A DNA stretch of 64,000 bases from Trichocoleus sp. FACHB-46 (GTDB taxonomy: Bacteria; Cyanobacteriota; Cyanobacteriia; FACHB-46): NCBI RefSeq assembly GCF_014695385.1, contig NZ_JACJOD010000006.1:620001-684000 (forward strand). Direction: 5' to 3'. A model generated the notes under the pieces. That model searched no databases. It was not told the origin of the DNA and was given only the letters and a program-made list of their open reading frames with translations. Position 1 is the first letter of the stretch. Every line of letters begins with the position of its first letter. Position numbers and translations under genes: made by a program. Positions 2,285 through 53,881 of the stretch are shown here, piece by piece.

Positions 2285-4342
2285 CTAGTCAGTAGCCGTA
2301 GGCTGGCAAGCAGAAACAGGTAATACTATTCGAAATTCGGCACCCGCTCCAGGTTGACTGCAACATTGCAGACGACCCTTGTGCCCTTTAACCACAATTT
2401 GATAGCAAATTGATAGTCCTAATCCTGTTCCTTTGCCCACTTCTTTAGTCGTGAAGAAGGGGTCAAAGATGCGCTCCTGTAACTCTAGAGGAATTCCTGG
2501 TCCGTCATCTCGAATTGAGACAACTACGCGATCGCCTTCATGCCAAGTCTGAATTGTGATATTTGCTTTTTCCCCAGCGGCATCTAAAGCATTGGCCAAG
2601 AGATTGAGGAAGACTTGATTAATTTGTCCTGCATGGCACTCTACCGAGGGAAGCTCGCCATAGAGCTTGTCAATTTTGACGCCTGTTTTAACCCGATGCT
2701 GCAAGATTAGCAGAGTGCTTTCAATACCTTCATGCAGGTCAACAGACTTGCGCTCTGCTTCATCTAATCTAGAAAAATTGCGCAGAGTTAAAACAATCTC
2801 TCGGATGCGCTTGGTACCTTCCTCCATAGAATTAATTAGCTTGGGAAAGTCCTCCCGCACATAGCTAAGTTCTTGCTCAGCAATCAACTCTGCGATCGCT
2901 TCTGGAGGATTAGGACAACAGTCTTCGTAAAGGGCGATCGCTTGATTTAAGGCAGTGGTATAGCGTTGGGCATAGGGCAGATTGGCATGAATAAAGGTGA
3001 TGGCGTTGTTAATTTCATGAGCAACTCCCGCCACCATTTGTCCTAAGCTAGATAGCTTTTCACTCTGAAGCAACTGCATTTGTGTGGTTTGCAGTTCTTC
3101 TAGCGTCGCTTTGAGCGTTTCGGCCTGAGCTTGAGACTGAACTGCTGCTGTTTGCACCTGGGTATACAGTTGAGCTTGCTGAATTGCAATTGCAGCTTGG
3201 TCGGCCAACTTCTGTAATAATTCGGTTTCCCACGCCTGCCAAACCCGAGGCGCACTACACTCGTGAGCGACTAACAGCCCCCATAACTTTGAGCGGATAA
3301 TGATGGGGACAATCAAATTGGCCTTGACCTGTAATTGCTCTAAGAAGTTGACATGGCAAGGGTCTAAACCAGCTTGAAAAATGTTGTGGATAGCACGAAC
3401 GCGGCCTCCCTGATATTGCTGGGCATACTTGGCCGAGAAGCAGTTGTCCTGGCTCATTTGACCCAGCGCTGACCTCCAAGGGCTAATAACTTCCTCTACA
3501 ACGACTTCACCTTGCCAGTTGGCATCCAAAAACTGGTAGATTACCACCCGATCGGTGTCGAGTAAGTGCCGCACTTCTCGCACTACTGTCTGCAAGATGG
3601 TCTGTAAGTCCAAAGTGCTGCGAATTTGATTCGTGACTAAGCGCAGGAGAGATTCCTGCTCCACCTGTCGCCGGGTTTCACTATATAGCCAAGCTTGATT
3701 GATGGCGATCGCCAACTGACTGCCGACGCCCTCTAGCAGTTCCATTTCCCAAGGGGTCCATTCCCGTTCGCGATCGCACTGATGCAGCCCAATAATGCCG
3801 TTGACCTTGCCTTGGTAACGAGTTGCCAAAGCCATCATGGAGCGAATTTGTAAGCCCTGAGCCACTTCCCTAATTTGCTCGGTTAAGCCCGGAAACTCTA
3901 AAAAGCGAGTGACTGCTAAGGCTCTAGGCTGGGCAATCAAGGCCTGTAAGTGAGGATTATCTCTGAAGGGGATTTTGCTGCCGAGTTGAGAGGGATAGTC
4001 GCCTTGGTTATACTCCCCCATCGTTGTCAGACTATCTTCCTCATCTGGCTCCACGACTAAAATACTAGCTCTGCTACATTTCAGGGCTTGGCCTAGTAAA
4101 CGACAAGCAGAATTTAAGATTTCTTCTAAATCTAAAGTGCTGCGAATTTCATTACTAATTTGATTAATCAGCTTAGAGAGTTGAACTTGCTGCTGTAGTT
4201 GTTGCGTTAAGTTTTGATGGCGCTGACGTTTATATAGTTCTAGCTCCAATAGCTCACCTTCAGCAGGATGTGTCCCATTATTCTCCAGAGAAAATGCTTG
4301 ACAATGTGAATGAAGAGGAGAGCTATTGACTTCAGAGGACAT
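2285..4342 (-). CDS. hybrid-GAF sensor histidine kinase, putative DXCF cyanobacteriochrome
   Basis: The 685-residue soluble kinase has a short coiled N-terminus, GAF1 (about 68-215), GAF2 (about 240-390), a coiled coil (395-430), a HisKA domain with phospho-acceptor His442 in VAHEINN, and an HATPase domain with an N-box (LNLLANALDA, 579-588), DDGPGIP (612-618) and GKGTGLGLS (636-644). GAF2 reads like a bilin-binding domain: DRVVIYQF, DNCF (Asp299-Cys301-Phe302), GRVRAI, PCH (Cys329-His330), ANLIVPI and LWGLLVAHECS. The 28-residue spacing of the two cysteines matches DXCF cyanobacteriochromes such as TePixJ (Cys494/Cys522). It therefore probably binds phycocyanobilin or phycoviolobilin and senses blue/green light; GAF1 lacks these cysteines. 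No receiver gene is adjacent. A GGDEF gene is transcribed divergently 606 bases away, which suggests a shared light or stress output, by inference. Confidence 0.9.
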   Translation of the reverse strand: MSSEVNSSPLHSHCQAFSLENNGTHPAEGELLELELYKRQRHQNLTQQLQQQVQLSKLINQISNEIRSTLDLEEILNSACRLLGQALKCSRASILVVEPDEEDSLTTMGEYNQGDYPSQLGSKIPFRDNPHLQALIAQPRALAVTRFLEFPGLTEQIREVAQGLQIRSMMALATRYQGKVNGIIGLHQCDREREWTPWEMELLEGVGSQLAIAINQAWLYSETRRQVEQESLLRLVTNQIRSTLDLQTILQTVVREVRHLLDTDRVVIYQFLDANWQGEVVVEEVISPWRSALGQMSQDNCFSAKYAQQYQGGRVRAIHNIFQAGLDPCHVNFLEQLQVKANLIVPIIIRSKLWGLLVAHECSAPRVWQAWETELLQKLADQAAIAIQQAQLYTQVQTAAVQSQAQAETLKATLEELQTTQMQLLQSEKLSSLGQMVAGVAHEINNAITFIHANLPYAQRYTTALNQAIALYEDCCPNPPEAIAELIAEQELSYVREDFPKLINSMEEGTKRIREIVLTLRNFSRLDEAERKSVDLHEGIESTLLILQHRVKTGVKIDKLYGELPSVECHAGQINQVFLNLLANALDAAGEKANITIQTWHEGDRVVVSIRDDGPGIPLELQERIFDPFFTTKEVGKGTGLGLSICYQIVVKGHKGRLQCCSQPGAGAEFRIVLPVSACQPTATD

Positions 4343-4948: not shown

Positions 4949-6697
4949 ATGGGTGCTGCAACGGTACAAGTTAGTGATCCTCAAATGCTTCAATCAAGAT
5001 TCAGGCAGCCTAATTGGAAATCCATCTACCCTTTGGTAGAAGCAGCAGTCATTAATCTCGCCTCAGCAAACTCCCTATTACAACAGATTGTAGAAGCGAT
5101 CGCCGCTGAGTATCAAGTTGAGTGCCTACTCTGGACGGGGTTTGACCCTGAAGTGGCTGAGGGCATTCAAGTTTATGGCACGGCTCGAGCTTTGCAAAGC
5201 CTGAAACAGGAGCTGAGTTTAATTCCCACTCTAGCCGAGACTCCCGGATTAATTTTAACTGCTCCGCCAGCCCAGGAGTCGAAAATTCAGATTTGCTATC
5301 TATCCAAGTCACCTCAATGGTTGTTAGACCAACAGCACCTCTCACACGCCGCTAGACTGTTTGGGGAAACCTTGATTGTGCCTGCTTGGAATGGCGATCG
5401 CCTCCGCTTTGTCCTGCAATTGCAGCGCCACCTACCGCAAGCTGCTACACATTTACCCGCTCTAGAGACAAGGCGTAAGCCATTTCTGCGCTCTTACTTT
5501 AACCCTAAAGTACCTACGCCTCAGCCTACAGTTGCAGCCGCTCAAGCTTGGATGGTCGAGGAAGTTGAAACGCTAGAAGTGATTTGTAGCCAGGTAGTAT
5601 TGGCGCTGAATGCGCTGCACTGGCGGGAGCGCCTCGAACAATCGCGGCAACAGGCAGCCCTAGTCGGTCGAATTGTGCGGTTGCTGAACTCCAGCCTCAA
5701 CCCCAATGAGATTGTGGAATGCATTGTGGCGGAGTTGGGCCAAGGGTTGAACAGCGATCGCTGCATTTTAGTAGATCTGCGAGGCGATCCAGTCCATATC
5801 TTGGCTGCTTGGGACCATCCAGAGCGGTGCTTTCAGCCGCTAGAGAATCGCCATATCGCCCGTGATCTCTGGCAGGACACAGTTGAGATGTTTCTCCAGG
5901 GTGCGGCTTCCTATCTGGAGTTAGAACTGAGCCAACAGGAGTCTGACCCGCTGTTAAATTGGTTGCGTGAAATTCAAGCTTTTGCTGCTTTAATTGTGCC
6001 GCTGTTTGTCCAAGATGAGTTTTTTGGCGCAGTCCTGCTGTTGTCTTACGAAAAGGAACGAGTTTACGAGCTAGATGAACTCCAGACGATTCGGCAGGTC
6101 GCAGACCAGGCTGCGGTAGCTTTGACCAATGCCCAGCACTATCAAAGCCTTTGGTTCAAGCAAGAAACTCTACGCTTGCAAAATAATTCCTTACAACTGG
6201 AAGTGATTCATGATGAGTTGACGCAATTGCTAAATCGGCGATCGCTAGAGCGGGAGCTGGCTCAACTCAGTGCTCCTGCCCAGTGGAACTTGCAGCCGCC
6301 CTTCAGTGTGATTGTGTGTGATATCGACTACTTCAAGCTGATCAACGACTCTTATGGTCACTTAGTGGGGGATGAAGTGTTGTACAGCTTGGCCCAACGA
6401 CTGCAAAAACAGCTACGGTTTGGTACATCCGCTTATCGGTATGGTGGTGAAGAGTTTGTCATTCTACTAATGGATGTGACGCTAGACAGAGCCTTTGAAG
6501 TCGCTGAGCGGTTGCGGCTGGCGATTCGCTCCACCGCCTTCGAGACCACGATTGGACCGTTGGAAATTAGTGCTAGTTTTGGCGTGGCACAACAGGATCC
6601 AACTAGCGATCAAGATGCTTGGGATACGGTACAGCGAGCTGACCGAGCTTTGTATGAGGCGAAGCGTCAAGGTCGCGATCGCGCGATCGTGCTTTAG
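4949..6697 (+). CDS. GAF-GGDEF diguanylate cyclase
   Basis: This soluble enzyme of 582 residues should make cyclic di-GMP from two GTP. A degenerate N-terminal GAF-like region (about 35-225) is followed by a clearer GAF domain (about 238-395), a coiled linker and a GGDEF domain (about 418-582). The catalytic core is intact: DELTQLLNRR, CDIDYFKLINDSYGH with metal ligands near Asp458, and GGEEF at 499-503. The product-inhibition site, normally RxxD five residues before the motif, reads R490-F-G-T493, so feedback control by c-di-GMP is probably weakened. Neither GAF domain has the Cys-His pair of a bilin-binding domain. It is divergent from the cyanobacteriochrome kinase. Family and activity are well supported; the input signal is unknown. 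Confidence 0.9.
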   Translation: MGAATVQVSDPQMLQSRFRQPNWKSIYPLVEAAVINLASANSLLQQIVEAIAAEYQVECLLWTGFDPEVAEGIQVYGTARALQSLKQELSLIPTLAETPGLILTAPPAQESKIQICYLSKSPQWLLDQQHLSHAARLFGETLIVPAWNGDRLRFVLQLQRHLPQAATHLPALETRRKPFLRSYFNPKVPTPQPTVAAAQAWMVEEVETLEVICSQVVLALNALHWRERLEQSRQQAALVGRIVRLLNSSLNPNEIVECIVAELGQGLNSDRCILVDLRGDPVHILAAWDHPERCFQPLENRHIARDLWQDTVEMFLQGAASYLELELSQQESDPLLNWLREIQAFAALIVPLFVQDEFFGAVLLLSYEKERVYELDELQTIRQVADQAAVALTNAQHYQSLWFKQETLRLQNNSLQLEVIHDELTQLLNRRSLERELAQLSAPAQWNLQPPFSVIVCDIDYFKLINDSYGHLVGDEVLYSLAQRLQKQLRFGTSAYRYGGEEFVILLMDVTLDRAFEVAERLRLAIRSTAFETTIGPLEISASFGVAQQDPTSDQDAWDTVQRADRALYEAKRQGRDRAIVL

Positions 6698-32550: not shown

Positions 32551-35500
32551 TTAACCGACAGCGATCGCCCCAGCAGCAGCAGAAGCCAATGCGGAGACAG
32601 CAGCGGTACCGAATAACCACCAGGCAGCAGTAGCAGCGGCTTTACGGGTTTCTTCAGCTTGATGCTGCGCTTGTCGCTTCAGGTCATCCAGGCGGCGTTG
32701 AGCTTCGTGTTGGATGCGTTCAGCCCGCTGGAGGACACTGTTTCTGGCCCCTTCAATTTGGTCGATGATGCGATTGGCATCTGCTTCCGAGATGTCTTCG
32801 CGGGAACTGAGCAGCGCCACCAAAGTACCGCGATCGAACTGACCGAGACGTGACCGCAGCGCATCAAATCCAGCTTGTGGATCATCGAACACGGTGCGTA
32901 GATCGCGCTTGATGCCTTCGTAGTTCAGTTCTGGACGGTCCAAGGCATTCAAGTAGTTGCGGATGCGACCAAAGATGCCGTCGATCACCGATTGAATCTG
33001 GTTCTGGATGTTCTGGATTTGCGCTTGCACTTGCTCCCGAACGGAGAGGACTTGATCAACGATGCGGCTGGCTTCTGCCTCAGTCATGTCAGAGCGCTGA
33101 GACAACAGAGCCACGATGGTCGAGCGATCTACATGGGAGAGGCGATCGCCTAGGCTACCCAACCCAGCGCGGGGGTCGCTGAGCAGCAATTGTAAGTCAC
33201 GCTTAATCCCTTCTGGATTGAGTTCTTCTTTGTCGGTATTACGCAGGTAGTTTTCCAGGGTGGCTTGGAAGTCACGCACACGCTCTTGAGTCCGAGCAGC
33301 CAAACGACGCGGCGCTCTGACAATGCTGCGGATCGCTTCTTGGGTTTGATCTACCAGGCGATTGGCTTGCTCTTCGCTGATGTCTGGGCGTTGGCTCAGC
33401 AATCGCACCAACGTTTCGCGATCGACTTGAGACAAGCGTCTTCTCAGCGCCAGAGTACCTTCTTTGGGATCGTGCAACAGAGTTTGCAGATCGCGCTGGA
33501 TGCCTACTGGATCGAGTTCTTGCAGGTTAGTGTTCCGCAGGTAGTCGGCGATCGCAGTGGTGGTTTTGTCGTATTGCTCTTTGGTCTTGCCTACAACAAT
33601 CTGGGGCGCATGGGTAATGTTGTTCCAGTTGCTTTCGACTTGATCAAAGATACGATTGGCTTCTTCCTCACTAATGTCGGGACGTTGAGCCAACAGTTTG
33701 ACAAAGGTATCGCGATCAACGGCGGAGAAACGCCAACGTAAGGCTCTGAAGCCAGCTTGGGGATCATCCAGTAAAGTTTGCAGATCGCGCTTGATGCCTT
33801 CAGGGTTGAGTTCGGAGCGACCTGTGTTTTGCAGGTATGACTCCAGACGTTGCCGCAACTCAGTCGCTTTTGATTCCGCTTGGTCTTGCACAGACTGAGC
33901 GTTGCCCAAAACGCGATCGCGAGTGCTTTCGAGTTGGCTAACAATGTGATCAGCTTCTTCCTGACTCAGGTCTTGGCGCTGAGCCAGCAACTGGACCAAG
34001 GTATCGTGGTCAAAGTGGTTCAGGCGATCGCGCAATTCTTCATAACCCGCTTCAGGATCTTCTAGCAGAGTTTGGAAGTCTCGCTCAATGCCTTCGGGGC
34101 TGAGTTCAGCTTTGCCAGTAGAGCTCAGATAATTCTCGACTCGACTGCGAAGATCCTGCGATTCCTCTTGATCCGCAGCAATCGTGGCAGTGGTGAGAAC
34201 TTCTTGGCGAATGCTTTCCAGTTCGTCGGCAATATCTCCCACTCGAGCAGGAGAGAGATCGCCCCGCTGAGTCAACAGATCCACAAAGTAGCTGCGGTTC
34301 AACTGTTCTAGTTGCCGCTTCACCACACCAGGATCGGCTTGCGGATCGTAGATAACGTTGCGGAATTCGTACTTAATTGTTTCTCGATTCAAATGCCAAG
34401 CATAGGAATTGAGGATGTAGTTTTCGATATCCGCTCGGATAGGGTTGAAAGGGAGGGCAGGCGCTTTTTCAGCGACTTGGCTACCTACTTTATTAGCTTG
34501 CTCGCCCAGCTTATCTTTGAAGCCTTGTAACTGACCCATCACCTTCTCAACATCAAGGTCAGAAAGGTCAGTGCGGCTCAGGACAGTGCCAGAGAGGGCA
34601 GTCATACCAAACTGAGCAGCTCGCCCAATCAAGCCAGGAGGTTGCTGCTGTTGGCTGCCACCTTGATTAGAACGGCGGATCTCCGCAATCAGTTGATCAA
34701 GTTTGTTGCTGAACTCGTTGGAACGTAGGTTTTCTGGCTGAGCCGAAGAGAGATAATCTCGCAATTGGCCCATCAGATCTTGCTGACCTTGCTGGCTCAG
34801 CACTTGCTGCCATACGCCTTCTAACTGATCCACGATGCGGTTGATATCGCGCTTGGAAAGATCGGTGCGGCTGCTAACTAAGTTGACAAAGGTTTGGCGG
34901 TCGATGTGACTGAGGCGATCGCGTAGAGATTCCCCCACACCACCAGCACTCTGAGCCAAAGACTTTAGCTCTGGGGTGTTCACTAAGTTTTCAAACTCGC
35001 CCCGAATCCGCGAAATATCCAATTCAGACGGCTTCAAGCGATCGAGATAGTCTTCAATGGTTTCGCGAATGCTGACTGGGTCCATACCGACGGTAAGTTC
35101 CCGGCGCACGGCTGCGGCTGCGGCTTCTGCGGTTGCTACCACTTGGTCACTCGCAGATTTACCCGCGATCGCGGCAGTTGCAGTGCCCAGCACCGCTTGG
35201 AACCCTGAGGTGGCCGTGTTAACCACCGAACCAATTAAGGAACCGACCGTTGAGGAGCTCACCCACACTAGCAGCGTGAAGTAAGCAGCCCAAATGACCA
35301 GACCAACAATTGCGCCTAAAACAGCATTTTCAATCAAGCTCAGCTTAACGGCGAGTAAGCAAGCAATGAATAAGGTAATGGTGACCGTGATCAGAGTCCA
35401 TAGGCCCACAGCAGTACCGATTTTGCGGATCGTGCCGCCCAAACTGCCTGAATCTTTGTGGCTGGAATGGCTAGAGTGGCTGGATTGATTGTCGTCAGAT

Positions 35501-35724
35501 TGGTGGCCTAAATAAGAAATTCCTGCGGCTACAGAAAGGTTGGTTAAAACTAATTGAATGGCAAAGGCTAAGACTAGCCCTGCGATCAAAGCTACAAAAA
35601 ATTGGGGACCTGAAAAGACAAGTGCGGCTTCTTCAGGAGTGGTGACTGATCCATCCACTGGCACTTGCGCAATCCAGAATTGCCCCTGGAATAATTCCCG
35701 TGCAATTCCTATATTGTGAAACAT
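32551..35724 (-). CDS. large membrane-anchored protein with ~95-residue tandem helical repeats
   Basis: No named family is recognised. The 1057 residues hold three or four membrane helices at about 40-62, 103-127, 133-157 and possibly 160-188, a His/Ser/Asp loop at 74-92, a central repeat region (about 219-1000), a coiled charged segment (1000-1030) and a final membrane helix (1033-1055). The repeat starts near residues 219, 429, 525, 623, 723, 819 and 917, with a degenerate copy at about 318-405. Each unit reads: L-x-x-Y-L, then L-[NS]-P-E-G-I-x-R-D-[FL]-Q-T-L-L-x-D-P, then R-L-x-x-[FV]-D-R-x-T-[FIL]-V-x-L-L-[AS]-x-R-x-D-[IL]-[ST]-E-x-x-A-x-R-I-x-D-Q-[ILV]-E. GAGGG lies eight bases ahead of the ATG. 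The repeats are helical by pattern, and a scaffold or membrane-organising role is a guess. Confidence 0.85.
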   Translation of the reverse strand: MFHNIGIARELFQGQFWIAQVPVDGSVTTPEEAALVFSGPQFFVALIAGLVLAFAIQLVLTNLSVAAGISYLGHQSDDNQSSHSSHSSHKDSGSLGGTIRKIGTAVGLWTLITVTITLFIACLLAVKLSLIENAVLGAIVGLVIWAAYFTLLVWVSSSTVGSLIGSVVNTATSGFQAVLGTATAAIAGKSASDQVVATAEAAAAAVRRELTVGMDPVSIRETIEDYLDRLKPSELDISRIRGEFENLVNTPELKSLAQSAGGVGESLRDRLSHIDRQTFVNLVSSRTDLSKRDINRIVDQLEGVWQQVLSQQGQQDLMGQLRDYLSSAQPENLRSNEFSNKLDQLIAEIRRSNQGGSQQQQPPGLIGRAAQFGMTALSGTVLSRTDLSDLDVEKVMGQLQGFKDKLGEQANKVGSQVAEKAPALPFNPIRADIENYILNSYAWHLNRETIKYEFRNVIYDPQADPGVVKRQLEQLNRSYFVDLLTQRGDLSPARVGDIADELESIRQEVLTTATIAADQEESQDLRSRVENYLSSTGKAELSPEGIERDFQTLLEDPEAGYEELRDRLNHFDHDTLVQLLAQRQDLSQEEADHIVSQLESTRDRVLGNAQSVQDQAESKATELRQRLESYLQNTGRSELNPEGIKRDLQTLLDDPQAGFRALRWRFSAVDRDTFVKLLAQRPDISEEEANRIFDQVESNWNNITHAPQIVVGKTKEQYDKTTTAIADYLRNTNLQELDPVGIQRDLQTLLHDPKEGTLALRRRLSQVDRETLVRLLSQRPDISEEQANRLVDQTQEAIRSIVRAPRRLAARTQERVRDFQATLENYLRNTDKEELNPEGIKRDLQLLLSDPRAGLGSLGDRLSHVDRSTIVALLSQRSDMTEAEASRIVDQVLSVREQVQAQIQNIQNQIQSVIDGIFGRIRNYLNALDRPELNYEGIKRDLRTVFDDPQAGFDALRSRLGQFDRGTLVALLSSREDISEADANRIIDQIEGARNSVLQRAERIQHEAQRRLDDLKRQAQHQAEETRKAAATAAWWLFGTAAVSALASAAAGAIAVG

Positions 35725-53197: not shown

Positions 53198-53881
53198 TCA
53201 GTGCATCAACCCGTGTTCCATCACAAACCGAACTAACTCCGCCCGGTTATTAGTTTCAGTTTTGCGTAATAAGCTGCTGACATGTTTTTCCACCGTACGA
53301 GGGCTGAGGTGGAGGCGATGACCAATTTGAATATTCGACAGACCATCCGCCAAGAGTTGCAGCACTTCTTGCTCTCGCTCCGTCAAGCTCACCGTTGAGA
53401 GCGCTGGCGTGGGGGTAAACTTAGCAGTTGCATTGGTCTTTTCGGCTGAAAGCTCTGCTTCTTGATGTCGCGATCGCCACTCAGCATGAATCATTTCCGC
53501 TTGAATCATCTGCGATCGTTCTAGCAAGTTGCGAACGACGGCTCCCAATTCATCCAAGTCGAAGGGTTTGGGTAAGTACAGATCGCACCCTAGCTGATAG
53601 CCCCGAATGCGTTCTTGAATATCAGTGCGAGCAGTGAGAAAAATAACGGGCAACAGTCGAAACTCTACCTTTTGTCGAACTCGTCTGACTAGCTCGTAGC
53701 CATCCATCCGAGGCATGGTAATATCGGTCACAATCAGATGAGGCTGGTACTCATCAACCAGCGCTAGCGCCTCCTGACCATTCTCAGCCGCAACGACTGA
53801 ATAACCAGAGAGTTCGAGATAATCGCTGATGGACAGGCGAGTACCGATATCATCATCAGCAACAAGAATCATCAAAGGCAT
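53198..53881 (-). CDS. NarL-type response regulator, Rre1/Ycf29-like
   Basis: The 227-residue regulator has a receiver domain (about 1-120) with phospho-acceptor Asp53 (IVTDITMP), acidic Asp9-11 and Lys of LPKPFDLDE, a 40-residue linker, and a LuxR/NarL helix-turn-helix (LTEREQEVLQLLADGLSNIQIGHRLHLSPRTVEKHVSSLL). The linker and N-terminal receiver resemble Rre1/Ycf29 (Synechocystis slr1783), the partner of Hik34/Hik2-type kinases in heat, salt and light response. That subgroup call is from memory. No kinase is adjacent. Confidence 0.88.
   Translation of the reverse strand: MPLMILVADDDIGTRLSISDYLELSGYSVVAAENGQEALALVDEYQPHLIVTDITMPRMDGYELVRRVRQKVEFRLLPVIFLTARTDIQERIRGYQLGCDLYLPKPFDLDELGAVVRNLLERSQMIQAEMIHAEWRSRHQEAELSAEKTNATAKFTPTPALSTVSLTEREQEVLQLLADGLSNIQIGHRLHLSPRTVEKHVSSLLRKTETNNRAELVRFVMEHGLMH

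Follow-up and report, generated by a model that had tools for sequence, protein, structure and literature searches.

A GAF-GAF-histidine kinase of Trichocoleus sp. FACHB-46 with a predicted DXCF-type cyanobacteriochrome domain

In the cyanobacteriochrome (CBCR) TePixJ, D492, C494, C522, H523, Q526 and N535 act in the photocycle, Q526 moves with the bilin, and H498 and W499 are propionate contacts (PMC6955287). In red/green and teal-DXCF CBCRs, blue-shifted photoproducts have been linked to two Phe positions, associated with the trapped twist (PMC5240096), and one further pocket position carries Ile in phycoviolobilin (PVB)-forming and Ala in phycocyanobilin (PCB)-keeping red/green CBCRs (PMC11284453). 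DXCIP CBCRs provide a precedent for loss of the canonical cysteine, which is absent from them, attachment being by the DXCIP cysteine (PMC5578081, PMC6628166). Here we describe a histidine kinase gene from Trichocoleus sp. FACHB-46 whose second GAF domain (GAF2) had been read, in a preliminary description, as a DXCF-type CBCR.

Gene and domain layout

The window, meaning the whole stretch of 64,000 nucleotides that was analysed, covers positions 620001-684000 of contig C6 within the 6.56 Mb genome. The gene lies on the minus strand at 2285..4342 and encodes a GAF-GAF-histidine kinase of 685 aa, as read from the ORF, from Pfam matches to two GAF domains and HATPase_c, and from an alignment with seven full-length relatives. 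ATG is the start codon, and the N-terminus MSSEVNSSP is common to the congeners (ORF list and alignment). Pfam returned two generic GAF domains and HATPase_c (2.3e-27) and nothing else, which bears out the earlier warning that a generic GAF label would hide a photoreceptor candidate here. As this output contained no PAS or PHY domain, a phytochrome (PAS-GAF-PHY) assignment was rejected.

All domains are on the minus strand. GAF1 spans residues about 71-224 (3671..4132; Pfam GAF_3 at 71-215, alignment), and GAF2 spans residues 230-395 (3158..3655), its assignment as a DXCF-type CBCR GAF being drawn from PDB sequence matches, predicted structure and pocket alignment. A predicted signalling helix of residues 371-475 (2918..3232), which includes the H-box His442, leads from GAF2 to the dimerisation domain, and the HATPase_c catalytic domain with its N, G1, F and G2 boxes occupies residues 573-677 (2312..2626; Pfam, invariant alignment columns). 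His442 and the four boxes were invariant in the alignment of eight full-length proteins. Together, the H-box His and the HATPase_c boxes mark the protein as a predicted sensor histidine kinase; Pfam detected no HisKA domain in it. In the full-length model (pLDDT 75, pTM 0.38; relative domain placement unreliable), helices 197-242 and 370-475 connect GAF1, GAF2 and the kinase.

GAF1 was well conserved among the eight proteins, including C80, C89 and HQC at 187-189. The alignment of full-length proteins showed neither a DXCF nor a Cys-His bilin motif in GAF1, and its similarity to CBCR GAFs was weak, so we rejected it as a second CBCR. It may instead supply a second input unrelated to bilin, or serve as a spacer or for dimerisation.

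Sequence, fold and pocket of GAF2

Solved CBCRs matched GAF2 at E values of 1e-40 to 1e-28, with both cysteines on bilin-linking positions. The best PDB sequence matches were PPHK (6oap, 1.8e-40) and TePixJ (3vv4, 1.3e-36), followed by other CBCRs, and bacteriophytochromes scored far behind. The motifs lay exactly where they had been reported: Cys301 in DNCF (299-302) and Cys329 in PCH (328-330), 28 residues apart, with GRVRAI, ANLIVPI and LWGLLVAHECS all found in GAF2. An alignment of residues 230-392 to known CBCR GAFs, which the preliminary description had proposed as a check, put Cys301 and Cys329 at TePixJ Cys494 and Cys522. Between GAF2 and TePixJ this alignment was gap-free from DXCF to CH. 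It matched DNCF (3437..3448, minus strand) to TePixJ D492-F495, with Cys301 at the position of the second, C10-linking cysteine, and Cys329-His330 (3353..3358, minus strand), the canonical bilin-linking cysteine and the next His, to Cys522-His523.

The AlphaFold2 model of GAF2, built with 55 homologues, had a pLDDT of 87.4. Using Foldseek, we superposed it on TePixJ (4glq) at 1.3 Å over 143 residues, with a TM score of 0.91 by target length, and obtained a TM score of 0.90 by query length against PPHK (6oap); the top matches were CBCRs and CBCR-derived fluorescent proteins. A VIA structural comparison gave Z scores of 22.8-25.2 against CBCRs and similar values for bacteriophytochrome GAFs. It is sequence, and not fold alone, that separates the two kinds of GAF.

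Pocket residues identical between GAF2 and TePixJ in the alignment were D299 (D492), C301 (C494), F302 (F495), Y310 (Y503), R314 (R507), C329 (C522), H330 (H523) and N342 (N535), whereas K305 (H498), Y306 (W499), F333 (Q526) and W354 (F547) differed. The trapped-twist positions are V280 and L337 in GAF2, V473 and L530 in TePixJ, and F and F in NpR6012g4. At the Ile/Ala isomerisation position GAF2 has V358, corresponding to TePixJ I551, and the full-length relatives have Ile or Val. Membership of the teal-DXCF subgroup, which needs Phe on beta2 and on helix alpha4, was rejected in view of V280 and L337. Likewise, S297 and D299-C301-F302 do not fit the extended red/green type (XRG; WXDXXL, no DXCF cysteine), nor do DNCF and C329 fit a DXCIP CBCR, where the canonical cysteine is absent. 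As aligned, the GAF2 pocket is nearer to that of TePixJ than to the teal-DXCF or red/green types. Because of this resemblance in pocket residues, we predict that the chromophore is PVB and the cycle blue/green. The transfer of colour from TePixJ is uncertain, since the tree clade containing GAF2 (below) holds none of the characterised references placed.

We infer bilin binding, PVB formation, the colours and the control of the kinase alike, and propose the following cycle. GAF2 would bind PCB via Cys329 and probably isomerise it to PVB. In the dark state, Cys301 would be added to bilin C10, giving a blue-absorbing form. Blue light would flip the 15,16 double bond, upon which the Cys301-C10 bond would break to leave a green-absorbing state, and green light would return GAF2 to the blue-absorbing state. 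Through the unbroken helix (about 370-475) this change would reach the dimerisation domain, altering His442 autophosphorylation.

Spread of the kinase and the GAF tree

When 388 cyanobacterial genomes were searched with a profile, near full-length relatives scoring above 880 bits turned up in 12, and three more full-length relatives came from genome contigs of Oscillatoria PCC 10802 and two Microcoleus MAGs. Congeners were 88% identical over the whole kinase. The relatives belong to the same class, and the named ones are all cyanobacteria; among plasmids, no match exceeded 60% identity, and most were partial ones to the kinase domain. DxCF and CH, that is, both cysteines, the Asp and the His, were kept in 15/15 full-length proteins, our kinase included. 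Since homology spans the whole domain and the cysteine pair is kept throughout this set, a chance motif match was ruled out.

The genome search found one heme oxygenase gene in the host (L142, 9.4e-89) and one ferredoxin-bilin reductase gene of the PcyA family (L031, Fe_bilin_red 1.5e-76), a gene content from which the host is predicted to make PCB. D-x-C-F together with C-H/Y occurs in 12 GAFs of the genome, GAF2 counted, and at least one other GAF is of the WXDXXL red/green type (L016, best PDB match NpR6012g4); the kinase is therefore likely one of many photoreceptors in the cell. We also noted a lone GAF with DDCF and CH in a 210-aa frame (L015, G000:C8:142323-142772), possibly a stand-alone dual-Cys CBCR.

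We then placed GAF2 in a tree of 123 GAFs, with rows gathered by similarity to GAF2, an arbitrary root and bootstrap values not fully settled. Five PDB references were included (TePixJ, PPHK, NpR6012g4, AnPixJg2 and Slr1393g3); published CBCRs without a solved structure are absent from it. Some divergent or redundant rows were removed by hand beforehand, and all counts describe the rows kept; those left out include L040 and the motif-less L012, L013, L014 and L022, which fell on the other side. GAF2 belonged to a clade of 50 rows that was split (99/98) from 73 rows holding all five PDB references. Within this clade the second cysteine was present in 50/50 rows, the canonical cysteine in 42/50 and the DXCF Asp in 29/50; among the other 73 the counts were 56/73, 73/73 and 73/73, respectively. 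The usual rule, by which the canonical cysteine and the Asp are fixed and the second cysteine is optional, is thus reversed in the GAF2 clade, a branch without a solved structure. L040 (DDSF, no canonical cysteine) fell within the clade in a preliminary tree and would break the invariance of the second cysteine. GAF2 itself keeps both cysteines and the Asp and so shows none of its clade's losses.

Eight CBCR-like GAFs (L043, L045, L061, L071, L080, L096, L066:6529-7023 and L042) keep the DXCF cysteine, but their canonical cysteine before the His is replaced by E, S, D, A or Q; six of them form one supported subclade, and two look like separate losses. A further subclade of about 20 GAFs lacks the DXCF Asp, which is invariant outside the GAF2 clade, and mostly keeps Cys-Phe and Cys-His (L041, L048, L072-L075, L077-L079, L081, L092, L095, L099, L105, L107, L108, L115, L116, L119 and L129). 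Where the locus shows it, several of these are preceded in their protein by a phytochrome-like FPADDIP GAF.

GAF2 might represent a DXCF lineage of its own that depends on the second cysteine, instead of the canonical one, to anchor the bilin. Photocycles unlike that of TePixJ might then be expected, because members repeatedly lose the canonical cysteine (to E, S, D, A or Q) or the DXCF Asp. We offer this proposal tentatively and would rather expect it not to hold. Clade members with and without each cysteine are natural variants on which the contribution of either bond could be tested. In the open literature searched, no characterised member of the clade came up, key lineage papers lying beyond that search, and it is not established that the clade is uncharacterised.

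Neighbourhood, alternative readings and named systems

A divergent gene on the plus strand (4949..6697) encodes a GAF-GGDEF diguanylate cyclase (DGC) with a GGEEF active site, as judged from the ORF list, Pfam and neighbourhood comparison. Two congeners and a member of another genus also have this gene adjoining the kinase, with a phosphoglucomutase-like gene behind. No response regulator gene is adjacent to the kinase; there is one in the window, at 53198-53881. The window also contains allophycocyanin-type and large ApcE-like genes, read from their translations. Convergent with the kinase is a 191-aa ORF (1692-2267) that is kept in congeners and, at the same place, in genome G020 (33% identity), and to which Pfam and NCBIfam gave no match. 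At 32551-35724, a 1057-aa protein has probable membrane helices followed by repeats of ~100 residues (DLQTLLDDPQAG...LRRRLS...); NCBIfam gave no match to it.

A functional link between the kinase and the GAF-GGDEF gene, and hence to c-di-GMP, is a guess. DXCF CBCRs control c-di-GMP by light in Thermosynechococcus, and the pair is retained in the genomes named above. Pfam found no receiver domain in the DGC, however, and the DGC is missing from the locus in G020 (L146), where the kinase is retained along with most of its flanking genes, so the pair is separable. We therefore consider it unlikely that this gene, and with it c-di-GMP, takes the place of a classical response regulator as the physiological output.

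For the chromophore, GAF2 could use both cysteines and yet keep PCB, isomerising it to PVB only in part or not at all; the photocycle would then be blue/orange or mixed. The photoproducts of known DXCF members include teal, green, yellow and orange ones (PMC5578081, PMC5240096), no placed tree reference lies inside the GAF2 clade, and the propionate-contact and Q526 positions are unlike those of TePixJ. On the other hand, isomerisation is typical of DXCF CBCRs, and V358 together with the non-Trp S297 fits it under the residue rules of PMC11284453; PCB retention is thus possible but does not seem the probable outcome. It is very improbable that GAF2, although of CBCR origin, no longer binds bilin and senses something else. 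Some GAFs of its clade have lost the canonical cysteine or the Asp, and CBCR-like GAFs without the motifs occur in the same genome (e.g. L012, L013, L014 and L022). A relic should lose motifs, but every motif is kept across the kinase and the whole set of 15 full-length relatives, and GAF2 is 88-89% identical to its congeners' domains with both cysteines retained. Sequence, predicted fold and conservation all support the reading as a DXCF-type CBCR kinase first put forward, and a soluble DXCF-type CBCR histidine kinase is, with high confidence, the best overall explanation. The evidence argues strongly that the kinase is a photoreceptor, with bilin binding and photoconversion predicted. What carried only a generic GAF histidine kinase label thereby becomes a predicted photoreceptor, and its blue/green colour is a prediction that can be tested.

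The kinase is a further member of the known CBCR family, from a branch without a solved structure. The TePixJ GAF of Thermosynechococcus elongatus (PDB 3vv4/4glq/4fof) shares with GAF2 the DXCF and CH motifs at an identical 28-residue spacing, 40-43% identity, the same fold and the lack of a trapped-twist Phe. TePixJ is a methyl-accepting chemotaxis protein on the 73-row side of the tree, whereas the GAF2 protein is a kinase on the 50-row side. PPHK, a dual sensor histidine kinase (PDB 6oap/6oaq/6ob8), is the closest PDB sequence and likewise has a CBCR GAF in a histidine kinase; its GAF domain, which alone was compared, shows 42-46% identity to GAF2 in structural alignments but has DQYF for DXCF, and so no second cysteine, and a helix Phe at C+8. 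Teal-DXCF CBCRs such as NpR1597g1 share DXCF and the canonical cysteine with GAF2, which has no Phe at the beta2 and helix positions linked to their blue-shifted photoproduct. Finally, DXCIP CBCRs have lost the canonical cysteine and kept the second, as have some relatives in the GAF2 clade, whereas GAF2 has the canonical cysteine and a DNCF motif.
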